Shown one piece after another: positions 33,148 to 48,151 of a stretch of DNA of 64,000 nucleotides. Below the pieces are notes generated by a model. It did not search any database and was not told where the DNA came from. It saw nothing but the letters and a program-made list of their open reading frames with translations. This DNA comes from Gillisia limnaea DSM 15749 (GTDB lineage Bacteria; Bacteroidota; Bacteroidia; Flavobacteriales; Flavobacteriaceae), in contig NZ_JH594606.1 of the NCBI RefSeq assembly GCF_000243235.1, positions 479,766-543,765 on the forward strand, read 5' to 3'. The position numbers were made by a program, and so were the translations under genes. Within the stretch, counting starts at the first letter, position 1. The number at the start of each line of letters is the position of its first letter.

Positions 33148-34455
33148 CTATCTATTTGCAGGTTTGATATTCTCTGCACATGGATTGTTTTTCTGAATTG
33201 CTTCTTTACAGCGTTTTATTGCCTCCTCAAAGGTATATTTAGGATGTGGACTTGGGGTGGGGTCAAAAAACAGATCCATTTGTGCCAGGGCACAAATAGT
33301 TTGGGCATCATTTTCATTTGGGGGTTGCGGTGCTCCCTCACCGTATTTGTTTCCATACCAGCGCATACAGGCCTGTTCCTTAGCAGCATAAGGATCTAAA
33401 TTGGGGTTATTTGCATAGAGTTGTAAAAAGGTCGCAGCTACCAGGTCCTGGGCTTCATACTGTCTCATGTCGGGAATTTGTGAAGGATCGTTGGTGCACA
33501 ATCCCGTAACCCCGGCGGCAATCATATGGTTTCCTATTAAATAAGGAGTTTCCCGTTTAGAGTCGGGCTTAATTTTGAATTTTCCAACTTGCAATACACT
33601 TACCAGGGGAATTCCATTTTCATCTAAAGGAAGCATGTCTTTATAAGCAACCTTAAACCATCCCGGTGCCTGCGGATCATAGAGCGGGGAGCCACAAATT
33701 AATAATGGCAAGGTGTATTTGCTATCTTCAGGCAAATCTGGCGGATTGAGAAAAAGTTCCAGCATAGAACGGATATAATCCCGGTCTGCCGGGCCGTCAA
33801 AAAACCCCGAAGCCATCATGATGGGGAAGTAATCATTAGGATATTCACTTTCTCCCGACCCGGGAGCGGCAATGGGATTTATATCAATAAAGGTTTTATA
33901 CTTTCCAAGGTCTTTTTCTTCAACCCCGGCGTGATTCAAAATCCTGCCCCAGCGTTGCATGGTCATGGCATTTTCAAAAGTTCCAGCCTGTAAAACCGCC
34001 CAGGGCGGATAATGCATTAATAGCATCCCTTTTTGACCAATAATGTTTAAACCTAAGGGTGGGAATAAATTCCATTTAGATTCCGCATCGGCTGGATTCC
34101 GGTTAACGTGGTAACCTTCCATGGGGTTCCAGACTCCCATTTCTTTTAGAAGTTCCATTCCGCGAATCGCTTTTTGTGCGTAGCCTTCACTAAATACCAA
34201 AATATGTCTTTCAGAAAATTTTTGTAGCACCTCATTTTCAGCTTCCCCTTCTATATTAATTTTATATATGCCTTCTTTTAGTTCTACTTCAACTTTAGAT
34301 GCAGCAATCCCATCTGCTGCCAGGGAATTTTTAGTGTAATGCACAATAACATCTTCAAAATTTTTAAAATTTAAATTTGCATTCGCATATTTTGCCGGTG
34401 GGAATAATTGTTCTAAATATTTAGCACTACCTAAAGAATATTCAATTGAAGCCAT
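33148..34455 (-). CDS. Orphan 435-residue protein, last gene of the glutathione/DNase II operon
   Basis: A soluble 435-residue protein with no signal peptide, membrane segment or motif I can assign. Features seen: an N-terminal alpha/beta part of about 95 residues, then PMEGYHVNRNPADAESKWNLFPP, TMQRWGRILNHAGVEEKDLG, a Pro-rich central part and a Cys/Trp-containing C-terminus (QACMRWYGNKYGEG, CALAQMDLFFDP). Four Cys residues lie in the final 150 residues. It starts 2 bp after the HAD stop, so it belongs to the operon. Function unknown; it may be the substrate-specific component of the pathway. Confidence 0.85.
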   Translation of the reverse strand: MASIEYSLGSAKYLEQLFPPAKYANANLNFKNFEDVIVHYTKNSLAADGIAASKVEVELKEGIYKINIEGEAENEVLQKFSERHILVFSEGYAQKAIRGMELLKEMGVWNPMEGYHVNRNPADAESKWNLFPPLGLNIIGQKGMLLMHYPPWAVLQAGTFENAMTMQRWGRILNHAGVEEKDLGKYKTFIDINPIAAPGSGESEYPNDYFPIMMASGFFDGPADRDYIRSMLELFLNPPDLPEDSKYTLPLLICGSPLYDPQAPGWFKVAYKDMLPLDENGIPLVSVLQVGKFKIKPDSKRETPYLIGNHMIAAGVTGLCTNDPSQIPDMRQYEAQDLVAATFLQLYANNPNLDPYAAKEQACMRWYGNKYGEGAPQPPNENDAQTICALAQMDLFFDPTPSPHPKYTFEEAIKRCKEAIQKNNPCAENIKPANR

Positions 34456-34457
34456 TT

Positions 34458-35210
34458 TTATTGTTTTTGGTTTGCAGTTCGTGAAAAATCGGAAATTGTG
34501 TACAGATTATCGGTGGGCGATTTGTCCTGCGGGTTCCAGGTGGTTTTAACCCAAACGTTCAGAGCATCCGGAAAATGATTAAGGAACATAAATGAATTTG
34601 AAGGCTCATTATCAAAAGTGGCTACTACCTTTCCCTGCAATGATTTTATATCGGTTAAAGCCCGGGCTTTATATTCTGAATCCTGCTCTTTGGCGTTTAT
34701 TTTAAGGTGTAGTTCACAGCGACCACGCCAAAAAGGAAATCCGCGATTGGTCAATGCAAGCACTGTGCCCTGGCCCATACCATTATTTAAACCGCTATCT
34801 CCAATTGCCCTCCCGGTGAGGTAATATAGGAGCGCGCCGGCATCATGGCAGGCTTTTGCAAAATCTACTGCTCCCGGATTGGGAAGATCCAACGCGTCAT
34901 AATCGTTCGTGAAAAAGGTGGAACCCCAGTACTCTACAAATGGTTTTATGGATGGACTGGCAGGAGAAAGTCCGGCTTTTTCCAGTGCCGCGGTAACGCT
35001 CCAGTTCATATCCAAAAGGCTTAATTTGGAAGCAATCTCCACAAAATCTGGATAGGCATCTCCACTATCACTGGAAAAATTTTGGATAATGATTAGATTT
35101 CTTCGCGCGGTAGAAAATAAGGTGTCATCAAGGTCAAATACCACTATGGGCAATTTATTGGAAGATTTTATAGTATCTAAAACTTGTTGTAAAATTGAAT
35201 TTTGGTCCAT
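34458..35210 (-). CDS. HAD-superfamily hydrolase
   Basis: A 250-residue protein taken from Met at 35210; an upstream Met at 35249 would add 13 hydrophobic residues but is less likely. Motif I is VVFDLDDTLFSTARRN with the nucleophile and acid Asp pair, motif II is YYLTGR, and the C-terminal acidic region ATFDNEPSN fits motif IV. The cap looks small. HAD enzymes of this kind are phosphatases. Inside this operon it might act on a phosphorylated intermediate or a nucleotide end. The orphan gene follows at 2 bp. Confidence 0.85.
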   Translation of the reverse strand: MDQNSILQQVLDTIKSSNKLPIVVFDLDDTLFSTARRNLIIIQNFSSDSGDAYPDFVEIASKLSLLDMNWSVTAALEKAGLSPASPSIKPFVEYWGSTFFTNDYDALDLPNPGAVDFAKACHDAGALLYYLTGRAIGDSGLNNGMGQGTVLALTNRGFPFWRGRCELHLKINAKEQDSEYKARALTDIKSLQGKVVATFDNEPSNSFMFLNHFPDALNVWVKTTWNPQDKSPTDNLYTISDFSRTANQKQ

Positions 35211-35263
35211 TGTAAGTCTTAAAAAATTAAAAAGGAAGCATAAATACAATATAGTACTTTAAA

Positions 35264-36637
35264 TCAACACTTTATATAATTATTTTTATTGAAAAATTCA
35301 ATAGAATCGTCTGCGAAACATCTTCTTTTGGAGGTGTATTTCTCATAGAAGGAAACCATTGATTCAACCTGAGTTTTATCTTTAAATTTTGAAGGTAATC
35401 CTAAAAATCCTTCAATAGCCAGCTTCATTACTTCCCTGGAAAGATGGTATAGATCATCATTTATAAACCCGTTTACTGATTCCGTCAACATTTGTTTAAT
35501 ATTTTCTTGCTTTGGCATTAACAGCTTCAGCGTTTTATCCAAAACCAGATTACTGTACAATAGTCCGGTGTAAAAATATACCGGCAACATTTGCCATTCC
35601 TTTGGGGGTGCATCTACAGAGCGTATTTCCAGATACTTCCTTAACCGGACTTCCGGAAAAAGTAAAGACAAATGATTAATAAAATCGGTTATTTTGGGAG
35701 AATGATCATTAATTGGATGTTGCAGCCAGTGATCAAAAGTATATTCCGAAGCTAAAATATGCTCCGGATTTTCCCCGATATAAATAAGTGGCGCATTAAG
35801 AGCGAATTTTAAATATTCTCCTACTACATCTTCCTTTTTCCAGGATTTAATGATTTTTTCAAGCGGAAGGAGGCCGGTCCTTTTAGGGTCGAGTTGTTGC
35901 CAGATATTACTTCGATATGATTTAAAACCATTTATTTTTCCTGCTGCAACAGGTGAATTTGCAAAAATGGCAGTAGCAAAAGGACTTAGCAGGTTTGCTG
36001 CAACAATTCGTTTTATGCGTGTATCCTCATCCCTTCCTAAATCCAGATTAACCTGGAGCGAACCTGTTAAGCGCATCATTTTCCTGCCAAACGGACTTAT
36101 GGCATCAAGATAATTCTGCAAATTCAGGTAACGTTGTTTTGGAATTTGTAGGCCCAAATCTTCGGTTCCAAACCAGGGATTCGTACCGTATTGGGCAAAA
36201 TGGATCCCATATTCCGATGTTATTTTTGAAAGAAGGTTTTGTTTGGCTTTTATTCTGCCTTCGAGTTCTCTAAGGTTTTTACAGGGATTGATACAAATCT
36301 CAATCTGGCCTCCCGGTTCAAACTGAAAATTATCACCGTTGGGAAATTCAATCTTTTTCAGAAGATTTTTATTCTTTCCTTCCTCCTCATAAATTGCTTT
36401 GCCCGCGATTGTTGCTGAAGCATTTATTAAAATATCCAGTAATTTTATCGTTTCATCCTGAATCCGGATAGGTACAGGTAAACCTTCAGAAATCTTAAAT
36501 GGAAAAATTTCGAGCTCTATACCCAACAGCCCAATTTCTTTTTCCCAAACTTCAGGGTTGGGGAAACTGGTGGTACCAAAAATAGTTTCTTCCAAATATT
36601 CCCGGCAGCATTGGTGGGTTAAAGTTTTTTGGTTCAT
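35264..36637 (-). CDS. Glutamate-cysteine ligase-like enzyme (GCS2/plant-type family)
   Basis: A 457-residue ligase. It shows GIELEIFPF, FEPGGQIEICINP, YGTNPW, RLTGSLQVNLDLG and LEIRSVDAPP, which are the conserved blocks of the GCS2-type ligases that join the gamma-carboxylate of glutamate to cysteine (or, in EgtA-like members, feed ergothioneine). ATP-binding acidic residues sit in the first two blocks. Paired in the operon with a GshB-type ATP-grasp ligase, it is most simply the first step of glutathione synthesis. The amino acceptor could differ, since the locus is atypical. Confidence 0.85.
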   Translation of the reverse strand: MNQKTLTHQCCREYLEETIFGTTSFPNPEVWEKEIGLLGIELEIFPFKISEGLPVPIRIQDETIKLLDILINASATIAGKAIYEEEGKNKNLLKKIEFPNGDNFQFEPGGQIEICINPCKNLRELEGRIKAKQNLLSKITSEYGIHFAQYGTNPWFGTEDLGLQIPKQRYLNLQNYLDAISPFGRKMMRLTGSLQVNLDLGRDEDTRIKRIVAANLLSPFATAIFANSPVAAGKINGFKSYRSNIWQQLDPKRTGLLPLEKIIKSWKKEDVVGEYLKFALNAPLIYIGENPEHILASEYTFDHWLQHPINDHSPKITDFINHLSLLFPEVRLRKYLEIRSVDAPPKEWQMLPVYFYTGLLYSNLVLDKTLKLLMPKQENIKQMLTESVNGFINDDLYHLSREVMKLAIEGFLGLPSKFKDKTQVESMVSFYEKYTSKRRCFADDSIEFFNKNNYIKC

Positions 36638-36646
36638 AAATCCCGC

Positions 36647-37717
36647 TTAAGATTTATCGATATGTGGATCAATTTCCAGTTTCTTTTCGGTAATCTGGAT
36701 GGCATCTAAGGATTGCCATAAGCCGGAATGATTGAAAACAACCGCACCACCACCGCGTTTACATTGAGTGAGTTGTCGATTCAGGTCAGAAACAATTATA
36801 TGATCTTTTTCACTTTTTACGGATATTCCCCATTTAGCATGATCTTTTGTATATGGCCATTTGTAGCCCGGTAATCCAATTTTACTCAAATCTATATCCA
36901 CATCATCTTCCGTGGCTTCCTTTTTATCCGGATCTATATCTCCAAATACCAGTCCGCGTCTCCAGGTTTCAACATCCAGGTCACATTTTAAGTTTGGCCC
37001 CACCAGGTCTTTCCAAAAATCTTTTCCGATAGTAGCCGGTTTTACAGGTTCGCTCCAATGTTTGTTTTTGGCTATATGAATGAATTGAAAACCTTCTTGG
37101 GATTCCAATTTTAACACTGAAGGGGCTATTGGAATTTCATATTTTTGATTTTTCGCCAACTTAAAAATTGTTTCTTCTGCACCTATATCCGGTAGATGGC
37201 TTGCGTATACCTGAATTTCATTTTGTGTAAGCAATACCTCTGCAAGTTTATTAACTTCAGAATAATCTTTAAGGGATAAACATATATAGGTTTGACCAAA
37301 TCTTTTTTCGTCTTCCGGTAATTCTGTGATTCCTACCGCAGGAAATCTTGGTGTGGAGTGAAGCAGGTAAAATCCGCAGTTATTTTTCTTTGAAAACGCT
37401 AAAACCCCTTTGCTATGGCCTTTAGAAATGTTGTTCTTTGGCTTAACATTACCGGAAGTGGGAGGAATTTCATCGTTCCACAACACATAACCTACATCCT
37501 GTTCCCCTGCAAAAATCTGATTTAAAGTAGAGGCCAATGCAGATTGTTCCTGCTCTAAGGACAGGGTTGACAAAGAAAGCCCCTTATTAGAAGCGGCATC
37601 GCAATACAAAAATTCAAAACCGTTTGAATCTTTTCGGGGCCCAACATCCATTGGAAGTTTATATATAAACCACCAATCTACAGGCTTGCTTGTATTATTA
37701 CTTATAGGTGAGATCAT
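36647..37717 (-). CDS. DNase II-family nuclease, no signal peptide
   Basis: A 356-residue protein of the deoxyribonuclease II family, a metal-independent phospholipase D-like nuclease. Seen: VDWWFIYKLP at the N-terminus, first HxK motif His101-Ser-Lys103 in GHSKGVLAF followed by HSTPRFP, second HxK motif His293-Ala-Lys295 in DHAKWGIS, and KRGGGAVVF near 321-324. All three landmarks match the animal enzyme, which acts on DNA in lysosomes. Unlike those, it has no signal peptide or hydrophobic leader. Its start overlaps the gshB-like stop by 4 bp. Bacterial members are few; role here unknown. Confidence 0.9.
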   Translation of the reverse strand: MISPISNNTSKPVDWWFIYKLPMDVGPRKDSNGFEFLYCDAASNKGLSLSTLSLEQEQSALASTLNQIFAGEQDVGYVLWNDEIPPTSGNVKPKNNISKGHSKGVLAFSKKNNCGFYLLHSTPRFPAVGITELPEDEKRFGQTYICLSLKDYSEVNKLAEVLLTQNEIQVYASHLPDIGAEETIFKLAKNQKYEIPIAPSVLKLESQEGFQFIHIAKNKHWSEPVKPATIGKDFWKDLVGPNLKCDLDVETWRRGLVFGDIDPDKKEATEDDVDIDLSKIGLPGYKWPYTKDHAKWGISVKSEKDHIIVSDLNRQLTQCKRGGGAVVFNHSGLWQSLDAIQITEKKLEIDPHIDKS

Positions 37718-38676
37718 AATGATGAATTTAATTTTTTAATTACACAATCCAATAACCTTCCGGCGATGTTTATATTGAATTCCTTATTTATTTCCTGAAT
37801 ACAGGTGGGGCTGGTCACGTTAATTTCAGTTAAATAATCACCTATTACATCAATTCCCGCAAACAGGAGCCCTTTTTTAACAAGGCCTGGACCTATTTCT
37901 TTACAAATCCAACGATCTCTTTCAGATAATTTGAAACCCTTACCACTTCCTCCTGCGGCGAGGTTGCCGCGGTGATCACCTTTGGAAGGAAATCGTGCAA
38001 GCCCATATTCCACAGGCTTCCCGTCAATTAGTATAATTCTTTTATCTCCTGTTGTTGAAATTTCTGAAATATATTTTTGCACCTGAACATATTCCTCCCC
38101 ATTTTTAGTTACTTCTTCTATAATTACATTTACGTTGGGATCGCCTTTTATCAAAACGAAAATTGATTTACCACCCATTTTACAAGTTGGCTTGATTACA
38201 ATTTTTTGATGTTTTTCCAAAAAATCCAAAATAAAAGTTCCTGAGCGTGTTAAAAGGCTTTCAGGACAGCATTGGGGAAACCAGGAGGTGAAAACCTTTT
38301 CGTTGGCATCTCTTAACCCCTGCGGCTTGTTGATAACCATTGCACCCTGTGCTTCGGCTTTTTCCAAAATGTAGGTTGACATAATATATTCAATGTCAAA
38401 GGGCGGGTCCTTCCGCATGAATAAAAAATCAAGATCTCCCAGATTGCCGGTTTCACTTCCTTTTATTTCAAACCAATTTTTTGAATCATCTTTTACGTGG
38501 ACAGAATGCATCCTGGCTTTAGCTACTCCATTTTCCAGAAAAAGATCCTTCAGTTCCATATAAACGATGGACCATCCTCTGGATTGGGCCTCCAGCATGA
38601 TTGCCAGCGTAGTATCTTTTTTAGGGTTAATTGATGTAATGGGATCCATCACAAAACCTATTCTCACTGGATTCAT
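37714..38676 (-). CDS. gshB: Glutathione synthetase-type ATP-grasp ligase
   Basis: A 320-residue protein with the GshB layout: N-terminal VGFVMDPITSINPKKDTTLAIMLEA, then FMRKDPPFDIEYI, VINKPQGLRDANEKVFTSWFP, the ATP-grasp lysine segment IVIKPTCKMGGKSIFVL, RIILIDGKP, HRGNLAAGGSGKGFKL and the metal-binding NVTSPTCIQEIN. This adds glycine to gamma-glutamylcysteine to give glutathione. It sits 2 bp after the kinase fusion gene and overlaps the DNase II gene by 4 bp. Symbol follows family identity; the true acceptor in this operon is untested. Confidence 0.93.
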   Translation of the reverse strand: MNPVRIGFVMDPITSINPKKDTTLAIMLEAQSRGWSIVYMELKDLFLENGVAKARMHSVHVKDDSKNWFEIKGSETGNLGDLDFLFMRKDPPFDIEYIMSTYILEKAEAQGAMVINKPQGLRDANEKVFTSWFPQCCPESLLTRSGTFILDFLEKHQKIVIKPTCKMGGKSIFVLIKGDPNVNVIIEEVTKNGEEYVQVQKYISEISTTGDKRIILIDGKPVEYGLARFPSKGDHRGNLAAGGSGKGFKLSERDRWICKEIGPGLVKKGLLFAGIDVIGDYLTEINVTSPTCIQEINKEFNINIAGRLLDCVIKKLNSSL

Positions 38677-38678
38677 AT

Positions 38679-41600
38679 TTATTTACTTGTTAATTGTTCA
38701 AAACCCTGCCAATCTTTATCAGGTGGAATAATCATGTGTATTTTTGTACGTTTAGCAAAAATGGAAAAAACAGGATCATCAGGGTTTTTTTGAATCCCTG
38801 CATTAAAAATTTCATAAGCCTGCCTAAAATCACGGTTGTAATAAGCCTGCATTCCCTCTTCAAGTTCTCCGGAAGAAGCCTCTTTTTTTGCCCTCTTATT
38901 ATCACTTTCTGCATCTAAAACTTCGTATAAGCTTACTGCTTTTCCTTTTCCTTTTACAGCTACGCGGTCTATTTGCCTTAGAGAAAATGCCTGTTTCATG
39001 TCCAGGCCATTGTAGGTGTCTTCTCCTATTAAAAACTGCGCTTTGTAAAGCTTAGTAAGTTGTTCTATCCTGGAGGCCAGGTTCACGGTATCCCCCAATA
39101 CCGTGCACTGCATCCTGTCTGCCCCGCCCATAGTTCCCAAAACAAGGGGGCCAGTATTCATACCTATTCCCATTTTTAGATGCAGTCCTGAATTTTGATT
39201 GAATATTCTTAAGGCCTGGACCATTTTTATTCCTGCCATTACAGCCTGCTGCGGTGGCACAGCAAAAAGGGCCATTACTTCATCACCGGCATAAGAATCT
39301 ATAAAACCTCCGGATGCGGATATGGAAACCCCAATTGTAGAAAAATATTTATTCAATAATTCAATCACTTTCTGGGGGGACAATTGCTCTACCAATGGTG
39401 TAAAATCCCGAAGATCTGAGAACAAAACGCTCATTTCCATCAAAACAGATTCTCCAAGTTTTACCTTGGCTATATCATCATGGCCTAAATTCCTTAAAAA
39501 CTGAATTGGAACAAATCTTTGCTGTGCCTTTAGCAACTTTTTTTGAGATTCATAAATTTTAGCATTTTCAATAGATATTCCGGCCTGGCCGGTAAGCAGC
39601 TTGATAATTTGCACCCTTTCTTCAGTAAAAACACTGCGCGTGAGGTTATTTTCCAGATATACTGCTAATTTTTGTCCAGCGCGGGAAGGTAATGGCACGC
39701 ATAGTACAGATAAAGGTTTTGCTGAATTTATATAGGGATCTGAAGAATATGAATTTATTTCCGAAGCGTTATCCAAACCAATAGTTTGGTTGGTCCTAAA
39801 GGAAGTATTGATAAGAGTTAGCGGAAGATTCTGAATATGATCAAGGGGGGTATTGGTTATTTTTTGTGACTTTTTCTGTTGGTCCAGATCTATTTTAGCC
39901 AGCACCGCAATTTTACCCTCTTTTTGTTCGATTAAAAAGCCTTTTTGAGCTCCGGAATTTTCAATTAATATTTCCAGGGTGGCAGTCAGTAATTTTTCTA
40001 AAACCAGCTCCCCCGAAATGATCTGGGAGGCTTTAAAAACCGAATTCATATCTATTTGTTCCAGGCTGAAGCTGTTCGTTATTAGCGCAGGGATTCCTGG
40101 CCGGTTGAGTATATTCTTAACAGGTACAGAAATTGCGGGATTAAGTATTCCCAGATGATCTTCCAATAATTGGGACACTTTGCGGTGTGCACCCCAGCGG
40201 TAATATAAATAATGGGCAGATTGCAGATAACCTTCGGCAGCTTTCGGGATTCCAAGATCGATTAATAAAAGTGCGGTTCTTTCATTTGCCATAGCTTCAT
40301 CCCGAATAAACTGATGCTTTTTAGCCATAGTGATAGATGATTCATAGTATTTTAATGCTGTATTCAATTCCCCCGAAATTCCTGCCAATTCAGCTTCCAT
40401 CAATAAGCGGAGGTGTTCAAAATTTGCTTCACATTGCCTTGCCCACAAAGTAATTGCGGTTAAACTTTCCTTCATTTTCGTCATTAATAACTCCCGATTT
40501 TCTTCCGAAGTTATTTTGAATATAGAAGATCGTACCAGGAAAGACACTATTTGAAATCGAACCAGTTGCGGCAAGGCCATAACCGAAGCCAACATTTTAT
40601 CCTGATCCAGCACATATTTATAGGCGCCTTCGGGTTTGTTGTAAAGCAAATAAATTTCGGCTTTATAGATATTGAAATTGGAAATCCCCGTCATAAATTT
40701 TCGACTATTCATTCCTTCAAGGCAGTATATTTCATCAAAATCATCATTAGAAAGGCTGAACAAGCTATTTGTGAGGCCCTGAAAATTTAATTGCATTTGT
40801 AGAAATAGCGTACCAGAGTCGTAGGAATCCTGATAATCACATTCCTTTACAATCAAAAGCAATTTACGATGTTCCCGGGAAGCGGTTTCCAGGTCTAATG
40901 TTGGATCCCAAATAATGCAATCCTGTGCGCTATAAGCTAAATAAAGAAGATCCCCAGACTGGTATCCGGCTTCAATTCCTTTGCGAAACCAGGAGGTCAT
41001 TGAGGACCAGTGATTGCTCCAGTGATGAACAAACATGGTGTACACGTAAATAATGCGGGATTTTAGCGAAATATCGTGAAAACGGTCTATTAATTCCACC
41101 CCTAATTTACCATATTGAAAGCCTGTGGCAGGATCATTAAAATATCCACATAAAATCATCCCATAGCCCGCATAGGAAAATGCGGACTCCGGGCTGTTAC
41201 CGAATTCCAGTGCGATATTCACAGATTTTAGCACCAAATAGGGAAACATGACGCCGCTGCCCGATAAAAAGGCCGCCGGAAAGATCTCCATGATAAGCTG
41301 GGATGCGATTTTGGCTTTCTCATCGCTCATTAGAGGCAAATCTAAAAGGGAAGAAATTTCTCTTCCGTGAAGCTGTTCTTTTATAAAATTTACTTCTTCA
41401 GCAGTGTTTTCTTCATTAGGTGTGCTTAAAAAATTGAATCCTAAAACAGACAGACCTTCATAGGCTGCTACTATAGATTCTTTCATCCTGCCAATGGTAG
41501 CATATTGCCTTGTTCGTGCTGAATATACGGTCCCTTTCTGAAGGTCTGACCTGGCATTTTCCAATAACATATTTGTCCAATTATCGGCATTTTCCCAGTC

Positions 41601-44069
41601 TCCGGTAAGATAAAAGCAATGTTGAATTTCTTCACTTAATTTCCAACAGAGATCAAAATCTTTTTGCCAGCCGGTGTCATGAAGCAATTCATATCCAATT
41701 CTTAAATATTCAAGAGAAGCTTCATAGGCTGTAGATCTTTTTGCCTTTATACCCGCTTGAAGGTTTAATTCGGCAAGGCTGGTTTTTTCAACTGGATCCT
41801 TAAGTAGAATTCTTCCGGCGTTAAGGTGGCCAACTATTTCCATGAGCCTTTCATCCATCTCCTCTTTGCCCTGATGTTTAAGAATTAACCTACCTATGGA
41901 AAGATGGACTGCCTGTCTCTTATCTATCGAGATGAGGCTATAAGCGACCTGTTGCAACCGGTCATGTTGAAATTTATAAGTAGGATTTAGCCGTTCGGGA
42001 TCCAATTCTTTTTTAGAAATATCATCAGAAAGTGAATCTATTCCAATAAATTTATAAGAATCATCCAGCGGAATAATTATATTTAATTTTAGGGCCTCGT
42101 AAAGTTCTAAAGCAATAGTTTCCATAGACTGCTCCATGATAATGGAAAGCGTTTTCAAATCGAAATACGCACCTATACAGGCAGCCATTTCAAGCAAATG
42201 CTGAGTGGCAGGTGATAACTCTTTAAAGCTGGAAAGCAGGAAGTCAATCACATTGTTACTGTAGTCAACTGCTTTGACTTTGGTAATATCCCAGTCCCAA
42301 AAACCTTCATCAGAATTAAAGGAAATAATTTCGCGCTCGTTTAAGTTTTTAAGCAACTCAATAGTGAAGAAAGGATTACCTCTGGTCTTTTCAAATAATA
42401 CATACCCGAGCTCTTTTGCATTTTCCTTATTGCATAGCAGTGTGTCTTTAATAATTCGGGTTAAGGCTACTTTTTTGAGTGGCTCCAAATTAATGGTTTC
42501 CACATACCTGTACTTTTCGATTTCTCCTATTGTGAGGTGTAGGGGATGTTTAATATCTACTTCATTATCTCTGTAAGCACCTATGAGTAATAGGTGGTTA
42601 AGGTCCTGAGAGACAATGAATTTATTGATTAGATTAAGCGTTGGTACATCGCTCCATTGAAGGTCATCCAGAAAAATCACGAGGGGATGTTCTTCTTTAG
42701 CAAAAACCTTTAAGAAAGCAGTAAATATTAACAGAAACCTATTTTGGGCCTCGGCAGGAGGGAGATTGGGTAAAGGTTCCTGCTTGCCTATTATTAACTC
42801 CAGTTCCGGGACCAGATCTACCATCAACTGTCCGTTGTTACCCAAAGAGCTAAGTAGACCTTCTTTCCAGCGTTGTAATCTTTTACCAGATTCTCCAAGA
42901 ATTTGCTTTATTAAACTCCTAAATGCATTGGCCAATGCCATATAGGCATCGTTCTGTCGAAATTGCTCAAACTTACCCTGGATAAAATATCCTTTTTTTT
43001 GGGCGATCAACCTGCCTAATTCCTGAACCAATACAGATTTTCCCACTCCCGAATATCCTGTAACAAGACAAAATTCTACCGACCCCAAAACAACCTTTTC
43101 AAAATGGGAAATTAATTTTTCCAACTCTTTTTCCCTGCCGTACAGCTTTTGCGGAATTTGAAATTGCGGGGAAACATCATATTTTCCTAATTCTAAATCA
43201 AAATTGAATAAACCCCCGGAAAATTTTGCCTTACATATTTCTAAATCGGTAATAATTCCAAAACTACTTTGGTAACGATCTTCCGCATTTTTAGCCAAAA
43301 GTTTCATTACTATTTTTGAGAGCACAGCGGGAATATTCGGATTTAAGGCATTTGGAGGTTTGGGTTGTTTGCTTATATGATTATGAACCCATTCCAGCGC
43401 ATCTTCACCCTGAAAAGGGAGTGTTCCGGTTAAAAGTTCGTAGAACACGATTCCCAAAGAATAATAATCGGTTCTATAATCAATATTGCGATTTATCCTG
43501 CCGGTTTGTTCAGGAGACATATAGGCTAGCGAACCTTCAAATTTATCTGAAAGAATAGAGGTTTGAAATTCCCGTAATAATTCTGACGAAGAACCAAAAT
43601 CAATTATCCGGGTCTTCTGTGTATGCGGATCTATTAAAATATTCCCGGGAACTATTTCTTTATGAATAACTTTGAATTCGTGAATTTTGCCTAAGGTTTT
43701 AACCAGAGGAGCAGCTATAGATAGGAAAACACCCACCGGCATCACCCCTTTTATGAAAGATCTGGAATACTCGACCAACGAAATTCCAAAATCTTCCATG
43801 ACAATGGCCAGGTTTCCATTTTCAACGCGTTCCAGGGCATAGATGTGCAATGCCTCTTCAAAATTAAGTGATGAGGCTATCCTGTATTCTCTTTGAAGGC
43901 TGGCTAAATCTTCCCTCGAGGGAAACTTATGCTGAAGGGTTTTAATAATTACACCGCAACCATCTTCTTTTCTTTTAGCCTTATAAATAGTATGCGACGG
44001 AGATTCGATAATAAGTCCCTCCAGAACATATCCCGGAATAAATATGGATGTCCTTATAGCATTCTCCAT
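38679..44069 (-). CDS. Giant Ser/Thr kinase-like / NTPase / TPR / GAF / class III cyclase fusion
   Basis: A 1796-residue protein. Residues 12-285: protein kinase-like domain (Lys43, DFG at 157-159, YMSPEQ), but the catalytic loop reads HKEIVPGN, with Glu138 where Asp is expected. Residues 310-600: AAA/STAND-type NTPase with Walker A GYSGVGKS (338-345) and Walker B VIFLDDL (464-470). Residues about 690-1310: helical repeats (TPR-like). Residues 1347-1505: GAF. Residues 1546-1715: class III nucleotide cyclase with metal ligands Asp1552 and Asp1596 and Asn1663/Arg1667. A last TPR closes the protein. No membrane helix. This resembles large cyanobacterial and myxobacterial signalling proteins. It lies mid-operon between a metallo-hydrolase-like gene and gshB. 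Confidence 0.93.
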   Translation of the reverse strand: MENAIRTSIFIPGYVLEGLIIESPSHTIYKAKRKEDGCGVIIKTLQHKFPSREDLASLQREYRIASSLNFEEALHIYALERVENGNLAIVMEDFGISLVEYSRSFIKGVMPVGVFLSIAAPLVKTLGKIHEFKVIHKEIVPGNILIDPHTQKTRIIDFGSSSELLREFQTSILSDKFEGSLAYMSPEQTGRINRNIDYRTDYYSLGIVFYELLTGTLPFQGEDALEWVHNHISKQPKPPNALNPNIPAVLSKIVMKLLAKNAEDRYQSSFGIITDLEICKAKFSGGLFNFDLELGKYDVSPQFQIPQKLYGREKELEKLISHFEKVVLGSVEFCLVTGYSGVGKSVLVQELGRLIAQKKGYFIQGKFEQFRQNDAYMALANAFRSLIKQILGESGKRLQRWKEGLLSSLGNNGQLMVDLVPELELIIGKQEPLPNLPPAEAQNRFLLIFTAFLKVFAKEEHPLVIFLDDLQWSDVPTLNLINKFIVSQDLNHLLLIGAYRDNEVDIKHPLHLTIGEIEKYRYVETINLEPLKKVALTRIIKDTLLCNKENAKELGYVLFEKTRGNPFFTIELLKNLNEREIISFNSDEGFWDWDITKVKAVDYSNNVIDFLLSSFKELSPATQHLLEMAACIGAYFDLKTLSIIMEQSMETIALELYEALKLNIIIPLDDSYKFIGIDSLSDDISKKELDPERLNPTYKFQHDRLQQVAYSLISIDKRQAVHLSIGRLILKHQGKEEMDERLMEIVGHLNAGRILLKDPVEKTSLAELNLQAGIKAKRSTAYEASLEYLRIGYELLHDTGWQKDFDLCWKLSEEIQHCFYLTGDWENADNWTNMLLENARSDLQKGTVYSARTRQYATIGRMKESIVAAYEGLSVLGFNFLSTPNEENTAEEVNFIKEQLHGREISSLLDLPLMSDEKAKIASQLIMEIFPAAFLSGSGVMFPYLVLKSVNIALEFGNSPESAFSYAGYGMILCGYFNDPATGFQYGKLGVELIDRFHDISLKSRIIYVYTMFVHHWSNHWSSMTSWFRKGIEAGYQSGDLLYLAYSAQDCIIWDPTLDLETASREHRKLLLIVKECDYQDSYDSGTLFLQMQLNFQGLTNSLFSLSNDDFDEIYCLEGMNSRKFMTGISNFNIYKAEIYLLYNKPEGAYKYVLDQDKMLASVMALPQLVRFQIVSFLVRSSIFKITSEENRELLMTKMKESLTAITLWARQCEANFEHLRLLMEAELAGISGELNTALKYYESSITMAKKHQFIRDEAMANERTALLLIDLGIPKAAEGYLQSAHYLYYRWGAHRKVSQLLEDHLGILNPAISVPVKNILNRPGIPALITNSFSLEQIDMNSVFKASQIISGELVLEKLLTATLEILIENSGAQKGFLIEQKEGKIAVLAKIDLDQQKKSQKITNTPLDHIQNLPLTLINTSFRTNQTIGLDNASEINSYSSDPYINSAKPLSVLCVPLPSRAGQKLAVYLENNLTRSVFTEERVQIIKLLTGQAGISIENAKIYESQKKLLKAQQRFVPIQFLRNLGHDDIAKVKLGESVLMEMSVLFSDLRDFTPLVEQLSPQKVIELLNKYFSTIGVSISASGGFIDSYAGDEVMALFAVPPQQAVMAGIKMVQALRIFNQNSGLHLKMGIGMNTGPLVLGTMGGADRMQCTVLGDTVNLASRIEQLTKLYKAQFLIGEDTYNGLDMKQAFSLRQIDRVAVKGKGKAVSLYEVLDAESDNKRAKKEASSGELEEGMQAYYNRDFRQAYEIFNAGIQKNPDDPVFSIFAKRTKIHMIIPPDKDWQGFEQLTSK

Positions 44070-44078
44070 AAAGATTTA

Positions 44079-44795
44079 TTAAACGTTGAACATGCGTTTA
44101 AAGGTTTCGTGATATTGCTGTTGTGCATTATTTACAACAGGATATCCATGGCCACAAAGAGCGTGTTCAAACTGTAATTGTTTTAAATTTGAAAAATCAC
44201 TTGCCTGTGGTTCACATTCATGCAACCAGGCCAACCCTAAATTTGCAGGTACGAAAAAGCCCATTTTCGTCATGGTTTCTACAGTTTCTTTATCAAAAAA
44301 TTGATCGGGTTCCGTCCAGTTTTGAAGGGAATCACAGGCAATCATAATTCCATTTTCACGGTTCAATCTTATAATCCCTTCAGGCCTTTTAGAAGTTTTA
44401 AACTGAAAAAAAGAGGAATTCTCAAAAGGCATTTCCCCTCCTTCTTTTAATTCCTTATCCGGTTTTATACCCTCTGGAAATCGCATTCCGGGAATTGCCC
44501 AATAGGTTGCATTATACCTGTCCAGGTAAAATGGATCGTCAACCCCATGCATATCTCCCAATCGTACCACATTTGCAATTTTTCCCAGCTTTTCAAGTTC
44601 TTTTAATCCAGCTTCGTTTAGTCTTACTGAATTTATAATACTAAGATCACCTCGCTCCCTAATCACGACCATATTCCTACTGAATTGCCACATGGAACCA
44701 AAAAATTCATTTTTCATAGTTCCTGAAACAAAAAACACATCCTTAAATACTTCCTTAATTTCGCCATGTTCCATGGCTTCGTAATATTTTTTCAC
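44079..44795 (-). CDS. Metallo-beta-lactamase-fold-like protein (DUF4336-like), degenerate metal site
   Basis: A 238-residue soluble protein whose order of segments resembles the metallo-beta-lactamase fold: EVFKDVFFVSGTMK (N-terminal strand), RNMVVIRERGDLSIINSVRLNE, LGDMHGVDDPFYLDRY at the place of the HxHxDH motif, IMIACDSLQNW and HALCGHGYPV near the C-terminus. Only single His and Asp residues remain in the metal region, so classical dinuclear zinc binding looks lost. Its start overlaps the stop of the upstream gene by 4 bp. The family call is tentative. Confidence 0.6.
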   Translation of the reverse strand: MKKYYEAMEHGEIKEVFKDVFFVSGTMKNEFFGSMWQFSRNMVVIRERGDLSIINSVRLNEAGLKELEKLGKIANVVRLGDMHGVDDPFYLDRYNATYWAIPGMRFPEGIKPDKELKEGGEMPFENSSFFQFKTSKRPEGIIRLNRENGIMIACDSLQNWTEPDQFFDKETVETMTKMGFFVPANLGLAWLHECEPQASDFSNLKQLQFEHALCGHGYPVVNNAQQQYHETFKRMFNV

Positions 44796-45634
44796 GTTTC
44801 TATGGTTTTATAGGTTGATTCAATTTCCTCATAAAATTGAGTGGTATTTGGACTATACTGATACCTACCTACGTAAACAAATTCGTTTTGATATTCGTTT
44901 AAGTAGGCGTTTAAATAATTTTTAAGAGCTTCAGAAATATTCCCCTTTAGATAGTCCTCTATAGTTTCATTTCCAGTGCTCGTGTCATGGCGTTTAATGT
45001 GAAAAAGAGTCATATCTTTTCCACCGAATAAGTCAAATAGGCATTGTAAATTTTTTCGGGAGTTTTTCATATCGAAAACAGCTCCACATAAAGCAGTTAG
45101 ATATTTATTTTTTTTGAGGGATTCTTCTGTAAAAATGGTACCGTTCTTTGCGGGATGGTGAAAATTGGGATAATCTTTACTTACTTTCAGGGGATGAGAT
45201 TCCAGTTTTTGAAGATAAGAATCACTTAATCCTGCTTTTTTGCCCCCCTCAATAATAATATTCATATAACGCCGAGTGGGGAGGCAGGTATTATTGATAT
45301 AATTTGGAAGTCCTACATAGGCCATAGCAGATTTTAAACCGCTGTTGGTTTCTACCCCTATTTCAATTCGTGTATACCCTATCTCGTAGGCTTCCATTAA
45401 ATCTAAAGTTTTTAAATGTTCATCCCGGCATTGATGAAGCATCCCTTCCACCCAATCTTCAGGAGTTCCCGGTTCAATATTCCCTACACCTCCCTCATGG
45501 TGAAACCAGTGCGCTACATTAAACTTTAATTTCCAGCCTTTTAAAACAGCAATTTCTGAACTCAATGGTTCAACTCCCTTGGCTTTGAGGGAAATAATAT
45601 TAATATTAGAACCATATCCAAAATAATTGAACAT
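44792..45634 (-). CDS. Gamma-glutamylcyclotransferase-like protein
   Basis: A 280-residue protein beginning MFNYFGYGSN: Tyr7-Gly-Ser-Asn10 is the YGSN substrate loop of GGCT-fold enzymes. The candidate catalytic Glu lies in LDLMEAYEIGYTRIEIGVE, matching the LDxxE...GYxRxxV pattern. Members release 5-oxoproline from gamma-glutamyl amines or glutathione. The extra C-terminal part of about 130 residues (from about 150) is not part of the core fold. It is the first gene of an operon that also carries glutathione-synthesis-type ligases, so synthesis and turnover appear linked. Confidence 0.85.
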   Translation of the reverse strand: MFNYFGYGSNINIISLKAKGVEPLSSEIAVLKGWKLKFNVAHWFHHEGGVGNIEPGTPEDWVEGMLHQCRDEHLKTLDLMEAYEIGYTRIEIGVETNSGLKSAMAYVGLPNYINNTCLPTRRYMNIIIEGGKKAGLSDSYLQKLESHPLKVSKDYPNFHHPAKNGTIFTEESLKKNKYLTALCGAVFDMKNSRKNLQCLFDLFGGKDMTLFHIKRHDTSTGNETIEDYLKGNISEALKNYLNAYLNEYQNEFVYVGRYQYSPNTTQFYEEIESTYKTIET

Positions 45635-46006
45635 TCTATTAAAAAATTGATTGGTACCGGTTTACTTTTTTAAACAGAACAGTAGGTTTTCTGTTCAAAA
45701 TCCTATTATTTTTTTTTAAAAAAAAACTGGTTTTTAAAACCCTTAATTTTTATAAACAACAAAAAAATAATAAATAATATCTAAAGAATTGAGACGGATT
45801 TACCGGGATTCCAAACTTTATGACGATTGCAATAAGATTTCATAACCACCTTACTTTCAGTAAAATCAGTCTAAATATAAGCTTTTATATTAAGATTTCA
45901 GACAGTCCTTAAATAAAATATTTCCCCTATATTTAACAATCCCCATTTTTAAAGTTGAAAAACTTACTTAACCTGCCTTTTATTTTAATCTTCATTCTCA
46001 AATAGT
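45635..46006. promoter_or_regulatory. Divergent promoter region of the glutathione/DNase II operon and PLC-like gene
   Basis: 370 bp between divergent genes. An inverted repeat, AACAGAA (45673-45679) with TTCTGTT (45689-45695), lies 39 bp upstream of the minus-strand operon and could bind a regulator. A-rich and T-rich tracts follow at 45710-45770. No clear TAnnTTTG box was found on either strand. Confidence 0.45.
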
Positions 46007-48151
46007 ATGGCAACATTTCTTATCAACCGGTTCCAGTCTAATGATTTTTATGGCGTGTGGCAATTTACGCCCGAAAAAGACCAGATTTTCACCAGAATTT
46101 CTATTGCTGAAAATTCCAAAATAAGCACCTCTCTTAAGCTCGCAACTGTAGGAGGTTATTTAATGGAATGGGGGGCCTGTGAAGAGAAAAATGGCGAAAA
46201 ATCTTTTCCCTATCGGTTATACGAATTTGATTCCGCAAGCGAAAATCCGCTGGGGGGTGTGTCGGTGCAGGAAGGCTCCTGGCCTATTGCAAAATTCTGG
46301 GGTTACCGAGGTCACTATTCCAACTATCCAAACGAGCAAATGGAACTCAATCTCATCCCAATGGGAAATTTTGTACTTTTTTTTGTGGGTGGCGAAGGGC
46401 GTGGAACTTATGAACTTTACAATTTCGATCCAAACTTTCTTAACCCGAAAACTACAGATCCCATACCGGTTCCTTATACTTCTCAGGGTGCTTTTCCTTC
46501 CATTCAGGCCGGCCATGAACTAATTTCAATTGGGAATTATGTTCTGGATAGAATGCCCGACGGGAATTTCCGGGTTTGGAGTTTTGATCCTCAAAATCCA
46601 ACGCCCTTATCCATTCCGGAAGTTTGGAAAGGGAAATGGAAAGGAGTGACAAAAGACCATCAAATAGTGCCTGTGGAAGATAAAATAGTAACCTGGAATC
46701 CAATGGATCTTTCCTATATGCTTTGGGATTTTAAACCAACTTCAGAAGAACCATTGCAAAATTTGATAAAAGAAGGAAAACTTCCGGAAGCAATGGCAAA
46801 CAGTTCTTCTTTGGTGAGTATTTCAAAGAGAGAAAAAAACATAAAAGCTTCCGAAGAAAAAGGAACTATGAACTATATGCGCTCCAAAATAAAGCATATT
46901 GTCTATTATATGGTAGAAAGCCGATCCTTTGATAATGTTTGCGGCTGGCTGTATAAAAATGAAGATGCCAATATTCAATTTGTTGGTAACGATAAAGCCT
47001 TTCAGGGAGCCAGTACAGAAAACTACAACCTGGATGGCAGTGATAAAAAAATTCATCAGAGCAAGTTTAACGAAGGTAAACTGAGCGATAAAATTGTATT
47101 ATCTGACCAGCTTCAGGATCCTTTTCATGACAATTCAGATGGCTTGGAACAGATGTTTTATCAAAGAAATCCTGGTTATCCCGGCAAAGCCAAACCCGAT
47201 ATGGGAGGATTTGTTCGCAACAATGCAAATGGGGAGGTGATGCTTAGCTTTGGTCCCGAACAGTTGCCAATTTTAAACGGACTGGCAAAAAACTACGCGA
47301 TTAGTGATGAGTGGTTTAGCTCTGTTCCCGGTGGTACAGATATTAATCGTGCCTTTGCCGTAACAGGATCTGCCCTTAATCGTTTGGGCACCTGGGAAGG
47401 GGGAAATCCTTATGCCTACTGGCCCAAATTCCCGCACCGGCAGTCATTATGGAAACTTCTTTGGAACTATGGAATAAGTGACTGGAAAATTTATAATGCC
47501 ATTGAGTGGGGGGGGTATCCATTTACCTATCATTTATATCTGGAAGGACAGGTGCCGGCTATAGATAATAACTCTAAGAATTATATTGACACCCTGGATA
47601 ATTTCAAGGTACAGGCAAAAAACGGAAATCTTCCGGCTTTTAGCTTTTTGGAACCTGTATGGATTGCGCCAAACGGCACTACTTCTTATCATCCAGGTGC
47701 AGATATTATACCTGCCGAAATCGCCCTCAATGAAATATACGAGGCTATAAAATCCGGGCCACATTGGGAGGATACTTTATTTGTAATTACTTTTTCCAAA
47801 AACGGCGGAATCTATGATCATGTAAGTCCGCCTTACGCTCAAAAACCCTGGCCAAATGATGGATTAGATGGTTTTGAATATGATATAATGGGACCCCGGG
47901 TGCCTGCTATTCTGGTTTCTCCCTGGATTAAAAGAAATACGATTTTCAGGGCTGCCGGCGACATTCCGTTTGATTCTACTTCATTTGCGGCCACTCTGTT
48001 AAAATGGTACGGCATTCCCATATCCCAATGGATGCTGGGAGATCGCATTGCCAGTGCGCCCACTTTTGAAGGCGTATTTCTGGAATCGGAGCCAAGAAAA
48101 GATGCGCCTACATTAACCCAGGCATATGACAAGAATTTTCCAGGTAAGTAA
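46007..48151 (+). CDS. Phosphoesterase/phospholipase C-like protein with five-repeat N-terminal domain
   Basis: A 714-residue protein without a signal peptide. Residues 15-250 hold five related segments of the form aromatic-x-x-Trp/Tyr-x-Phe-x-Pro (YGVWQF at 15, YRLYEF at 69, YELYNF at 135, FRVWSF at 188, YMLWDF at 237), suggesting a small propeller or repeat domain. Residues 290-700 match the phosphoesterase family PF04185 (acid phosphatase/phospholipase C). But the metal motif ENRSFD is ESRSFD (304-309), and the D-E/D-HGG motif before YDHV is FSKNGG (596-601). Activity may be lost or altered. It is divergent from the DNase II operon. Confidence 0.85.
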   Translation: MATFLINRFQSNDFYGVWQFTPEKDQIFTRISIAENSKISTSLKLATVGGYLMEWGACEEKNGEKSFPYRLYEFDSASENPLGGVSVQEGSWPIAKFWGYRGHYSNYPNEQMELNLIPMGNFVLFFVGGEGRGTYELYNFDPNFLNPKTTDPIPVPYTSQGAFPSIQAGHELISIGNYVLDRMPDGNFRVWSFDPQNPTPLSIPEVWKGKWKGVTKDHQIVPVEDKIVTWNPMDLSYMLWDFKPTSEEPLQNLIKEGKLPEAMANSSSLVSISKREKNIKASEEKGTMNYMRSKIKHIVYYMVESRSFDNVCGWLYKNEDANIQFVGNDKAFQGASTENYNLDGSDKKIHQSKFNEGKLSDKIVLSDQLQDPFHDNSDGLEQMFYQRNPGYPGKAKPDMGGFVRNNANGEVMLSFGPEQLPILNGLAKNYAISDEWFSSVPGGTDINRAFAVTGSALNRLGTWEGGNPYAYWPKFPHRQSLWKLLWNYGISDWKIYNAIEWGGYPFTYHLYLEGQVPAIDNNSKNYIDTLDNFKVQAKNGNLPAFSFLEPVWIAPNGTTSYHPGADIIPAEIALNEIYEAIKSGPHWEDTLFVITFSKNGGIYDHVSPPYAQKPWPNDGLDGFEYDIMGPRVPAILVSPWIKRNTIFRAAGDIPFDSTSFAATLLKWYGIPISQWMLGDRIASAPTFEGVFLESEPRKDAPTLTQAYDKNFPGK

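Follow-up and report, generated by a model that had tools for sequence, protein, structure and literature searches.

In the genome of Gillisia limnaea DSM 15749, we found a nine-gene unit that appears from genome comparisons to be self-contained, being kept together across families and orders and having sharp edges in two congeners. It lies at positions 33148-48151 of a 64,000-nt stretch of NZ_JH594606.1 (hereafter the window; coordinates count from its first letter) and comprises eight minus-strand genes and a divergent plus-strand phosphoesterase gene. The conserved core consists of a gamma-glutamyl cyclotransferase-like protein (GGCT), a protein with a metallo-β-lactamase (MBL) fold, a giant sensor and a phospholipase-like protein (the phosphoesterase), usually with a DNase II. 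The Bacteroidota version adds to this core a glutathione synthase (GshB), a GCS2-type glutamate-cysteine ligase (GCL), a HAD-like phosphatase and an orphan protein. In the sensor, as judged from its domains and motifs, a kinase-like domain and a STAND-type NTPase are joined to a signalling output that is exchangeable between lineages. We tentatively read the unit as a second-messenger-controlled intracellular effector module of the conflict or programmed-death type, which would depend on glutathione; we give this reading a probability of about 0.4. The gene families are known, and what would be new is the gene set and its couplings, with a biochemistry that is predicted.

Conservation and boundaries of the unit

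With the DNase II protein as query, 50 loci were found in the GTDB species genomes. In four of them, from Algoriphagus (L005-L008), all eight minus-strand genes were present in the same order at 40-69% protein identity, and the divergent phosphoesterase gene adjoined. For genome scans, the MBL-like protein was used as the marker of the unit. Within the window's genus the marker was found in 2 of 16 genomes, the window's own counted (five were less than 83% complete). The other carrier, congener G624, has all nine genes at 65-86% protein identity, with flanks differing from those of the window; its GGCT and MBL-like genes are merged in one 517-aa frame. Comparison by blastn of the 64-kb window with 30 kb of G624 gave matches at 33148-45652 and 46151-48141 and none outside. 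The ratio of nonsynonymous to synonymous substitution rates (dN/dS) between the window and G624 was 0.05-0.17 in all nine genes, a rough estimate given the high dS (0.8-2.3). Between L005 and L006 it was 0.01-0.13 in nine genes, namely the eight and a second orphan copy, the phosphoesterase being left out. Among 395 genomes sampled across the phylum, DNase II occurred in four and the marker in three. These three are the window genome and a pair from a single other genus, the DNase II loci of which match the Algoriphagus records.

The second orphan copy is a shorter paralogue that lies directly upstream of GGCT in three Algoriphagus genomes (L005:880-1905, L006:880-1905 and L007:753-1778). In Algoriphagus boritolerans, the DNase II frame (L007:10001-11071) is broken by a stop, and this copy was kept out of the DNase II alignment.

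The eight minus-strand genes are transcribed in the order GGCT, MBL-like, sensor, GshB, DNase II, GCS2, HAD and orphan (Table 1). Overlaps of 4 bp join GGCT to the MBL-like gene and GshB to DNase II, and gaps of 9 bp (MBL-like/sensor and DNase II/GCS2) or 2 bp (sensor/GshB and HAD/orphan) separate others. An earlier annotation made from the window's letters alone (the first-pass annotation) had described these eight genes with spacings of 2, 4 or 9 bp, and all eight were recovered in the list of open reading frames. It had also given 53 bp before the HAD gene, which is correct if this gene begins at ATG 35210. An upstream TTG at 35249 offers another start; we favoured the ATG because the HAD protein of G624, 84% identical, aligns from that residue. 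The limit of eight genes proved too narrow, as it left out the divergent phospholipase-like gene; the annotation also missed the fusions of orphan relatives described below.

The families named in that annotation were recovered above cut-off for GshB, GCS2, DNase II, GGCT and the kinase, AAA_16 and cyclase parts of the sensor, whereas the HAD match was weak (22 bits against a cut-off of 27) and the GAF match lay just below cut-off. No Pfam or NCBIfam family was found for the protein it had called an orphan. The protein it had labelled "metallo-hydrolase-like" also had no Pfam or NCBIfam family; its AlphaFold model has the MBL fold, and the HxHxDH motif is missing. The central claim, one unit tying glutathione genes, DNase II and sensor together, was borne out by the gene order in four Algoriphagus genomes and by all nine genes in G624. 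Scattering in close relatives had been named as evidence to the contrary. None was seen for the marker, which is absent from 14 of the 16 genus genomes and accompanied by the whole unit in the other carrier, but the triad and the DNase II/phospholipase-like genes lie apart in four gammaproteobacterial genomes.

The intergenic region at 45635-46006 likely holds the promoters of both divergent gene sets. In relatives, 82-129 bp separate the sensor gene from gshB, and therefore two transcripts are possible. No RNA families or tRNAs were found in the window, and its base composition revealed no island. A promoter and terminator scan gave fewer promoter-like sites than shuffled sequences (32 vs 43.7), and the number of terminators was close to that expected (20 vs 16.6).

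Table 1. Coordinates of the unit's genes and of its divergent intergenic region in the window
Feature	Coordinates	Strand	Basis
Orphan, 435 aa	33148-34455	-	No family; fusions in relatives; weak fold likeness
HAD-like phosphatase, 250 aa from ATG	34458-35210	-	Weak Acid_phosphat_B match, below cut-off
GCS2-type glutamate-cysteine ligase (relative of plant GCL), 457 aa	35264-36637	-	PF04107, 131.8 bits
DNase II, 356 aa	36647-37717	-	PF03265, 241.7 bits
GshB glutathione synthase, 320 aa	37714-38676	-	NF003573, 418.6 bits (cut-off 272)
Giant sensor, 1796 aa, triad gene 3	38679-44069	-	Pfam; motif alignment
MBL-fold protein, HxHxDH motif absent, 238 aa, triad gene 2	44079-44795	-	AlphaFold model; Foldseek
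GGCT (gamma-glutamyl cyclotransferase-like), 280 aa, triad gene 1	44792-45634	-	Pfam AIG2_2/GGACT over cut-off
Divergent intergenic region separating GGCT from the phospholipase-like gene	45635-46006		383 bp at the same place in congener G624
Phospholipase-C-like phosphoesterase, 714 aa, ninth member	46007-48151	+	PF04185, 188 bits at residues 295-671

Conserved core in Gammaproteobacteria

In 11 of the 50 loci, the triad of GGCT, MBL-like and sensor genes adjoined DNase II; four of these are from Algoriphagus, six from Gammaproteobacteria, and one, L053, is a Lysobacterales contig whose end falls within DNase II. Thirty genomes were searched for the marker and for gshB, of which 28 belong to the 50 loci (L018 being left out) and the other two are the window's and G202; 16 had the marker. 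A scan of the order of Motiliproteus gave marker matches in 16 of 194 genomes, four of them strong (at least 378 bits) and 12 weak (124-208 bits). Three of the strong carriers were new (L081-L083), and each had the triad together with a phospholipase-like protein that has an orphan domain fused in front of it. The 12 weak relatives were rejected as carriers, being unlinked to triad genes in the 11 stretches read (two of only ~10 kb; G446 offered a short locus only). One of these weak relatives, in G554, is encoded by a gene with an internal stop.

Twenty carriers are thus known, comprising the window genome (G000), G624, four Algoriphagus, 13 gammaproteobacterial genomes and L053. The unit-type phospholipase-like gene was found in 19 of them (the L053 genome was not covered for it) and DNase II in 17, with the L053 copy truncated by the contig end and the L007 frame interrupted. 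The share for DNase II is biased upward, because 16 of the 20 carriers were found via this protein. In the order scan, which started without DNase II, one of the four strong carriers had it, and this one (G400) was the scan centre, known beforehand.

In the gammaproteobacterial stretches read, the phospholipase-like gene accompanied the triad, in most cases with DNase II, and neither GshB nor GCS2 lay beside them. Since Gammaproteobacteria in these stretches keep the triad and the phospholipase-like protein without adjacent GshB and GCS2, glutathione synthesis does not belong to the core, and a glutathione operon with passenger genes was ruled out on the same ground. The first-pass annotation was right to link glutathione genes, DNase II and sensor in a single unit, but its emphasis on glutathione synthesis was misplaced, and its suggestion that thiol chemistry controls the DNase met with no direct evidence.

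Sensor and its exchangeable output

Pkinase, AAA_16 and Guanylate_cyc matched the sensor above their Pfam cut-offs, and its domains are kinase-like (residues 27-267), AAA_16 NTPase (308-496), GAF (1357-1501, below cut-off) and class III nucleotide cyclase (1545-1711). The first three are common to the relatives, and the output domain differs. It is a class III cyclase in Bacteroidota (by Pfam for the window, by motifs for L005-L008 and G624), GGDEF in Gammaproteobacteria (by Pfam for L010 and L060, by a GGEEF motif in six further aligned rows and L081) and HisKA/HATPase in L053, where the next gene encodes a response regulator that carries a class III cyclase.

Within the NTPase, the 15 triad rows retain the Walker A lysine and the Walker B motif. 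The kinase Lys, HRD Asp and DFG Asp were kept in all four Algoriphagus rows and L053; the window sensor has the Lys and the DFG Asp with HKE instead of HRD, and G624 has HKD. None of the three residues is kept in any of the nine remaining gammaproteobacterial rows, of which eight show a GGDEF tail and one, L026, stops short of it. A catalytically active kinase domain is therefore probably not required. In the cyclase, the position that we take to be that of the usual adenine-specifying Lys is Ser in five Bacteroidota rows and G624. A second class III cyclase, a 619-aa protein with TPR and Guanylate_cyc domains, is encoded in the window at 24355-26214 (+), ~7 kb from the unit.

GGCT, MBL-fold protein and putative effectors

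Two GGCT families matched triad gene 1 above cut-off, and a profile search aligned it with human GGCT (2pn7, E 4.5e-11). E81, presumably the catalytic Glu, and the YFG[YF]GSN loop were kept in 18 of 18 sequences, which points to membership in the GGCT family. The MBL-like protein gave an AlphaFold model with a mean pLDDT of 93.4, and its Foldseek matches (2p97 and VIM enzymes) identify it as an MBL fold. The HxHxD(H) metal motif was absent from all 18 unit proteins and from the 11 solitary homologues examined.

By family profile, DNase II matched 5i3e/5unb (412 bits). H101/K103, H120 and H293/K295 were invariant in all 14 aligned sequences; we take H101/K103 and H293/K295 to be the catalytic residues, and both the family and the HxK motifs are thus those of DNase II. 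The phospholipase-like protein has an extra N-terminal part of ~290 aa and matched non-specific phospholipase C4 (NPC4, 8hav) by sequence. Of the unit proteins that cover the sites, 16 of 16 have ESRSFD for ENRSFD, as does G624 in addition, and 15 of 15 have xK[NS][GN]G for DEHGG (SKNGG in the window); they thus lack the canonical phospholipase C motifs. ENRSFD and DEHGG, presumably the catalytic motifs of phosphoesterase-family phospholipases C, are kept in L009, L036, L056 and plant NPC4. A crude hydropathy test found no hydrophobic N-terminus in the 14 DNase II proteins, the window's phospholipase-like protein, the orphan or one protein of the c5 group described below. In G202, which belongs to the same family and has no marker, a DNase II-phospholipase pair with a canonical phospholipase active site lies 42 bp apart on one strand (L056:6419-9037).

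The AlphaFold model of the orphan had a mean pLDDT of 79.8, and its best Foldseek match was weak (4zbx, a family-4 uracil-DNA glycosylase; E 7.5e-3, TMq 0.27). A uracil-DNA glycosylase identity had no sequence support, and no such Pfam match occurred in the nine members scanned. Relatives of the orphan form fusions with DNase II in L051 and L052, with a partial DNase II near a contig end in L054, and with the phospholipase-like protein in L081-L083. The loci with DNase II fusions are planctomycete or verrucomicrobial (L051:8663-11266, L052:8597-11599 and the incomplete L054:9380-10315). Kinase- or cyclase/AAA_16-type proteins and GMC oxidoreductases adjoin the fusions in L051 and L052, with an aldehyde dehydrogenase also in L052, and a wider family of DNase II systems with oxidoreductases is possible. 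In a gammaproteobacterial metagenome-assembled genome, a GMC oxidoreductase, an orphan, DNase II and an aldehyde dehydrogenase occur with a kinase/AAA_16 protein nearby (L024:6369-14476).

A GG-rich repetitive protein, c5, lies by the sensor or DNase II in ten loci (L010, L011, L012, L014-L018, L022 and L059). It has 574-630 aa and, in our judgement, resembles autotransporter passengers; the L010 copy (L010:1359-3251) had no match in Pfam, NCBIfam, PADLOC or PHROGs.

Glutathione synthesis in carriers

GshB of the unit exceeded the NF003573 cut-off for the glutathione synthase equivalog (Table 1). The GCS2-type protein scored far above the PF04107 cut-off of 21 bits and aligned over residues 102-411 with plant GCL 6gmo (E 7.8e-44), and it is a putative glutamate-cysteine ligase. 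It remained below the plant GCL equivalog cut-off, and its assignment as EgtA of ergothioneine synthesis was rejected (TIGR03444, 171.8 vs 370.8 bits).

The glutathione capacity of carriers was judged by gshB above the NF003573 cut-off, the proteobacterial-type gshA lying outside the search. All 20 carriers had such a gshB, and in six Bacteroidota carriers the sole copy above cut-off sits inside the unit. Among the non-carriers of the 30-genome set, 4 of 14 had it, all Proteobacteria, and the 14 genus genomes without the marker (some incomplete) had none. In the phylum sample, 12 of 395 genomes exceeded the cut-off, and the three at 415-428 bits were exactly the three carriers. All five Bacteroidota carriers tested had the bacillithiol gene bshC, and the three gammaproteobacterial carriers tested lacked it. 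In the portion of PMC6282198 available to us, gshA-B are reported in Cyanobacteria, Proteobacteria, Eukarya and one actinobacterium but not in Bacteroidetes, and bacillithiol genes are reported in Bacteroidetes.

On the simplest reading, glutathione is probably a requirement of the unit, which carries the synthesis genes with it: gshB occurs in 20 of 20 carriers, and in the Bacteroidota carriers, of which the five tested also have bshC, the one copy above cut-off lies in the unit.

Comparison with known systems

Kaur et al. 2020 (PMC7159879) describe NTP-dependent conflict systems built from STAND, kinase and cyclase components which, in the parts of that article available to us, have an ATPase switch, often inactive kinase-like domains and a cyclic nucleotide (cNMP) cyclase that is rarely replaced by GGDEF. 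The unit is alike in its predicted ATPase switch, kinase-like domains and cyclase/GGDEF exchange. However, it has GGCT, DNase II, a phosphoesterase and glutathione genes instead of vWA/MoxR; no Pfam match to vWA or MoxR occurred in the nine proteins, which sets the unit apart from VMAP/vWA-MoxR ternary systems. The words "cyclotransferase" and "glutathione" do not occur in the main text of PMC7159879.

The class III cyclase of the sensor matched PADLOC PycC (70 bits), a likeness to Pycsar. In the unit, however, the cyclase is the tail of a 1796-aa sensor and is swapped for GGDEF or a histidine kinase in relatives, and PADLOC matched no Pycsar effector family, so the unit does not qualify as Pycsar. 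The TOMM kinase/cyclase fusion (TIGR03903) likewise combines kinase, NTPase and cyclase in one protein, but the unit sensor scored 124 bits against a cut-off of 706, and no TOMM biosynthesis family was found in the nine proteins.

The bacterial DNase II 5i3e/5unb (Putative deoxyribonuclease-2), presumably from B. thailandensis, belongs to the same family over its full length with motifs kept, whereas the unit's enzyme is embedded in a regulated unit. With NPC4 the unit's proteins share the phosphoesterase domain, but they have altered motifs and the extra N-terminal part. As described in the available part of PMC11078745, a family-4 uracil-DNA glycosylase, the S. tokodaii enzyme, is the nearest fold to the anti-phage glycosylase Brig1; the best PDB likeness of the orphan model is the same enzyme, but it is weak and without sequence support.

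Proposed mechanism and alternative explanations

In the effector-module reading, the sensor would bind a cue, use ATP as a threshold switch and make a second messenger, probably a cyclic nucleotide in the window's version and c-di-GMP in most Gammaproteobacteria. The messenger would release intracellular effectors: DNase II would act on DNA, and the orphan and the phospholipase-like proteins would bind DNA or membrane. This release would amount to a conflict or programmed-death response. The GGCT/MBL pair would consume a compound that the response requires, either glutathione or another gamma-glutamyl compound. GshB and GCS2 would be carried along because Bacteroidota make bacillithiol rather than glutathione. 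The regulatory part is drawn by parallel with the cyclase (rarely GGDEF) exchange and the inactive kinases reported in the accessible portion of PMC7159879.

Several observations weigh against this reading. The link between the genes is known from sequence alone. L014, L015, L020 and L022, all gammaproteobacterial, have the triad apart from the DNase II and phospholipase-like genes in the same genome, which argues against one unit, and L081-L083, three triad carriers, had no DNase II match genome-wide. DNase II is an acid nuclease, and its activity at neutral cytosolic pH is uncertain. DNase II was absent from the phage records, no relatives of the MBL-like protein or the orphan were confirmed among pattern matches in viral contigs, and PADLOC returned nothing beyond generic sensor kinase/cyclase matches and a weak JetA match of the HAD protein (16.6 bits).

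Further points concern glutathione. The other nine Bacteroidota of the phylum sample have gshB above cut-off (278-294 bits) without the unit, and gshB is usual in Gammaproteobacteria, the group of all other carriers. The glutathione link in Bacteroidota may reflect a single acquisition spread by transfer, and because the Bacteroidota cases may share one acquisition, 20 of 20 does not represent 20 independent cases. Elsewhere in the window genome there is a PRK12458-type GshB-like gene (412.8 bits, subfamily cut-off 408), and most genus genomes have a match of similar strength. Second GCS2-family genes also occur, on contig C1 of the window genome (91 bits) and in each Algoriphagus genome (187-193 bits). 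The PRK12458-type gene of the window genome (L055:7214-11055) lies between genes for 303-aa and 620-aa proteins.

If the effector-module reading holds, the unit would bring a low-molecular-weight thiol of its own into hosts that use a different one, and this cofactor dependence would be testable by gene removal. It would also offer a natural series of exchanged signalling outputs on one sensor and an animal-type DNase II in a regulated, apparently cytoplasmic setting. The orphan and the MBL-like protein represent two families without Pfam match whose fusion partners suggest tests of role. A bolder version, which we regard as doubtful, makes the unit a mobile conflict system with glutathione as its currency. 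It would import a foreign pathway into bacillithiol makers, signal through cyclic nucleotide, c-di-GMP or phosphorelay as suits the host, and combine DNase II with a glycosylase-like DNA-binding partner and a dead phospholipase acting as binder or switch.

A thiol-stress module seems unlikely. In such a module, the sensor would respond to oxidative or electrophile stress, glutathione would be made and turned over by the operon, and DNase II and the phospholipase-like protein would do house-cleaning instead of serving as weapons. The family score of GshB indicates an intact enzyme, the GCS2 alignment covers the plant GCL core, the presumed catalytic Glu of GGCT is kept in 18 of 18 sequences, and GAF and MBL folds occur in redox sensing, all of which would suit this module. 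However, the core stands without GshB and GCS2 in the gammaproteobacterial stretches read, the marker is rare (3 of 395 phylum genomes), and none of the nine proteins matched a thioredoxin, glutaredoxin or peroxidase family in Pfam.

DNases and phospholipases of such kind are often secreted, and the unit could be a scavenging or predatory set of exoenzymes degrading the DNA and lipid of other cells. The DNase II-phospholipase neighbours with canonical active sites and no triad in L009, L036 and L056 are consistent with such a set, as is c5 beside the genes in gammaproteobacterial loci. Its improbability for the unit follows from the proteins without a hydrophobic N-terminus in the crude test, the lost canonical residues of the unit's phospholipase-like proteins and the lack of any transporter family among the nine proteins in Pfam.

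Less probable again is a gamma-glutamyl natural product or signal, for which GCS2 and GshB would make a non-glutathione peptide trimmed by GGCT. GGCT substrates vary, and GCS2 lies far below the plant GCL and EgtA equivalog cut-offs. Yet GshB lies well above the glutathione synthase cut-off, no export family was found by Pfam among the nine proteins, and in Gammaproteobacteria GCS2 and GshB are missing from the stretches read while gshB lies elsewhere in the genome. A chance neighbourhood kept by recent common descent is hardly credible: relatives of DNase II, the phosphoesterases and the MBL-like protein do occur singly elsewhere, but the gene order kept at 40-69% identity between families, the block boundaries, the fusions and the purifying selection contradict it.

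Searches for a listed system and for mobile relatives

No system or family covering the gene set was found in Pfam, NCBIfam, PADLOC or PHROGs (six proteins). Among the literature matches listed there was no description of this gene coupling, most subscription papers lying outside the search; the first-pass annotation likewise knew of no described system with this set. The unit was rejected as a listed defence system, PADLOC having given only generic kinase/cyclase matches and the one weak JetA match. Only GGCT matched among the six unit proteins scanned against PHROGs, and the phage-record, viral-contig and PHROGs results ruled against a phage origin.

Carriage of the unit by plasmids was rejected as well. 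The plasmid records contained no orphan relatives. MBL-like relatives occurred in three Vibrio records at 36% identity, and the one of these that was read had no other unit gene in its 24.7 kb. The phosphoesterase gave partial matches in 142 records (~30% identity among the matches listed, none covering 80%), which we read as ordinary phosphoesterases. DNase II was found in one Burkholderia pyrrocinia plasmid, where the stretch L096:4764-16936 encodes a tyrosinase, DNase II, a nucleoside-phosphorylase-domain protein, a metallophosphoesterase and a ferritin-like protein.

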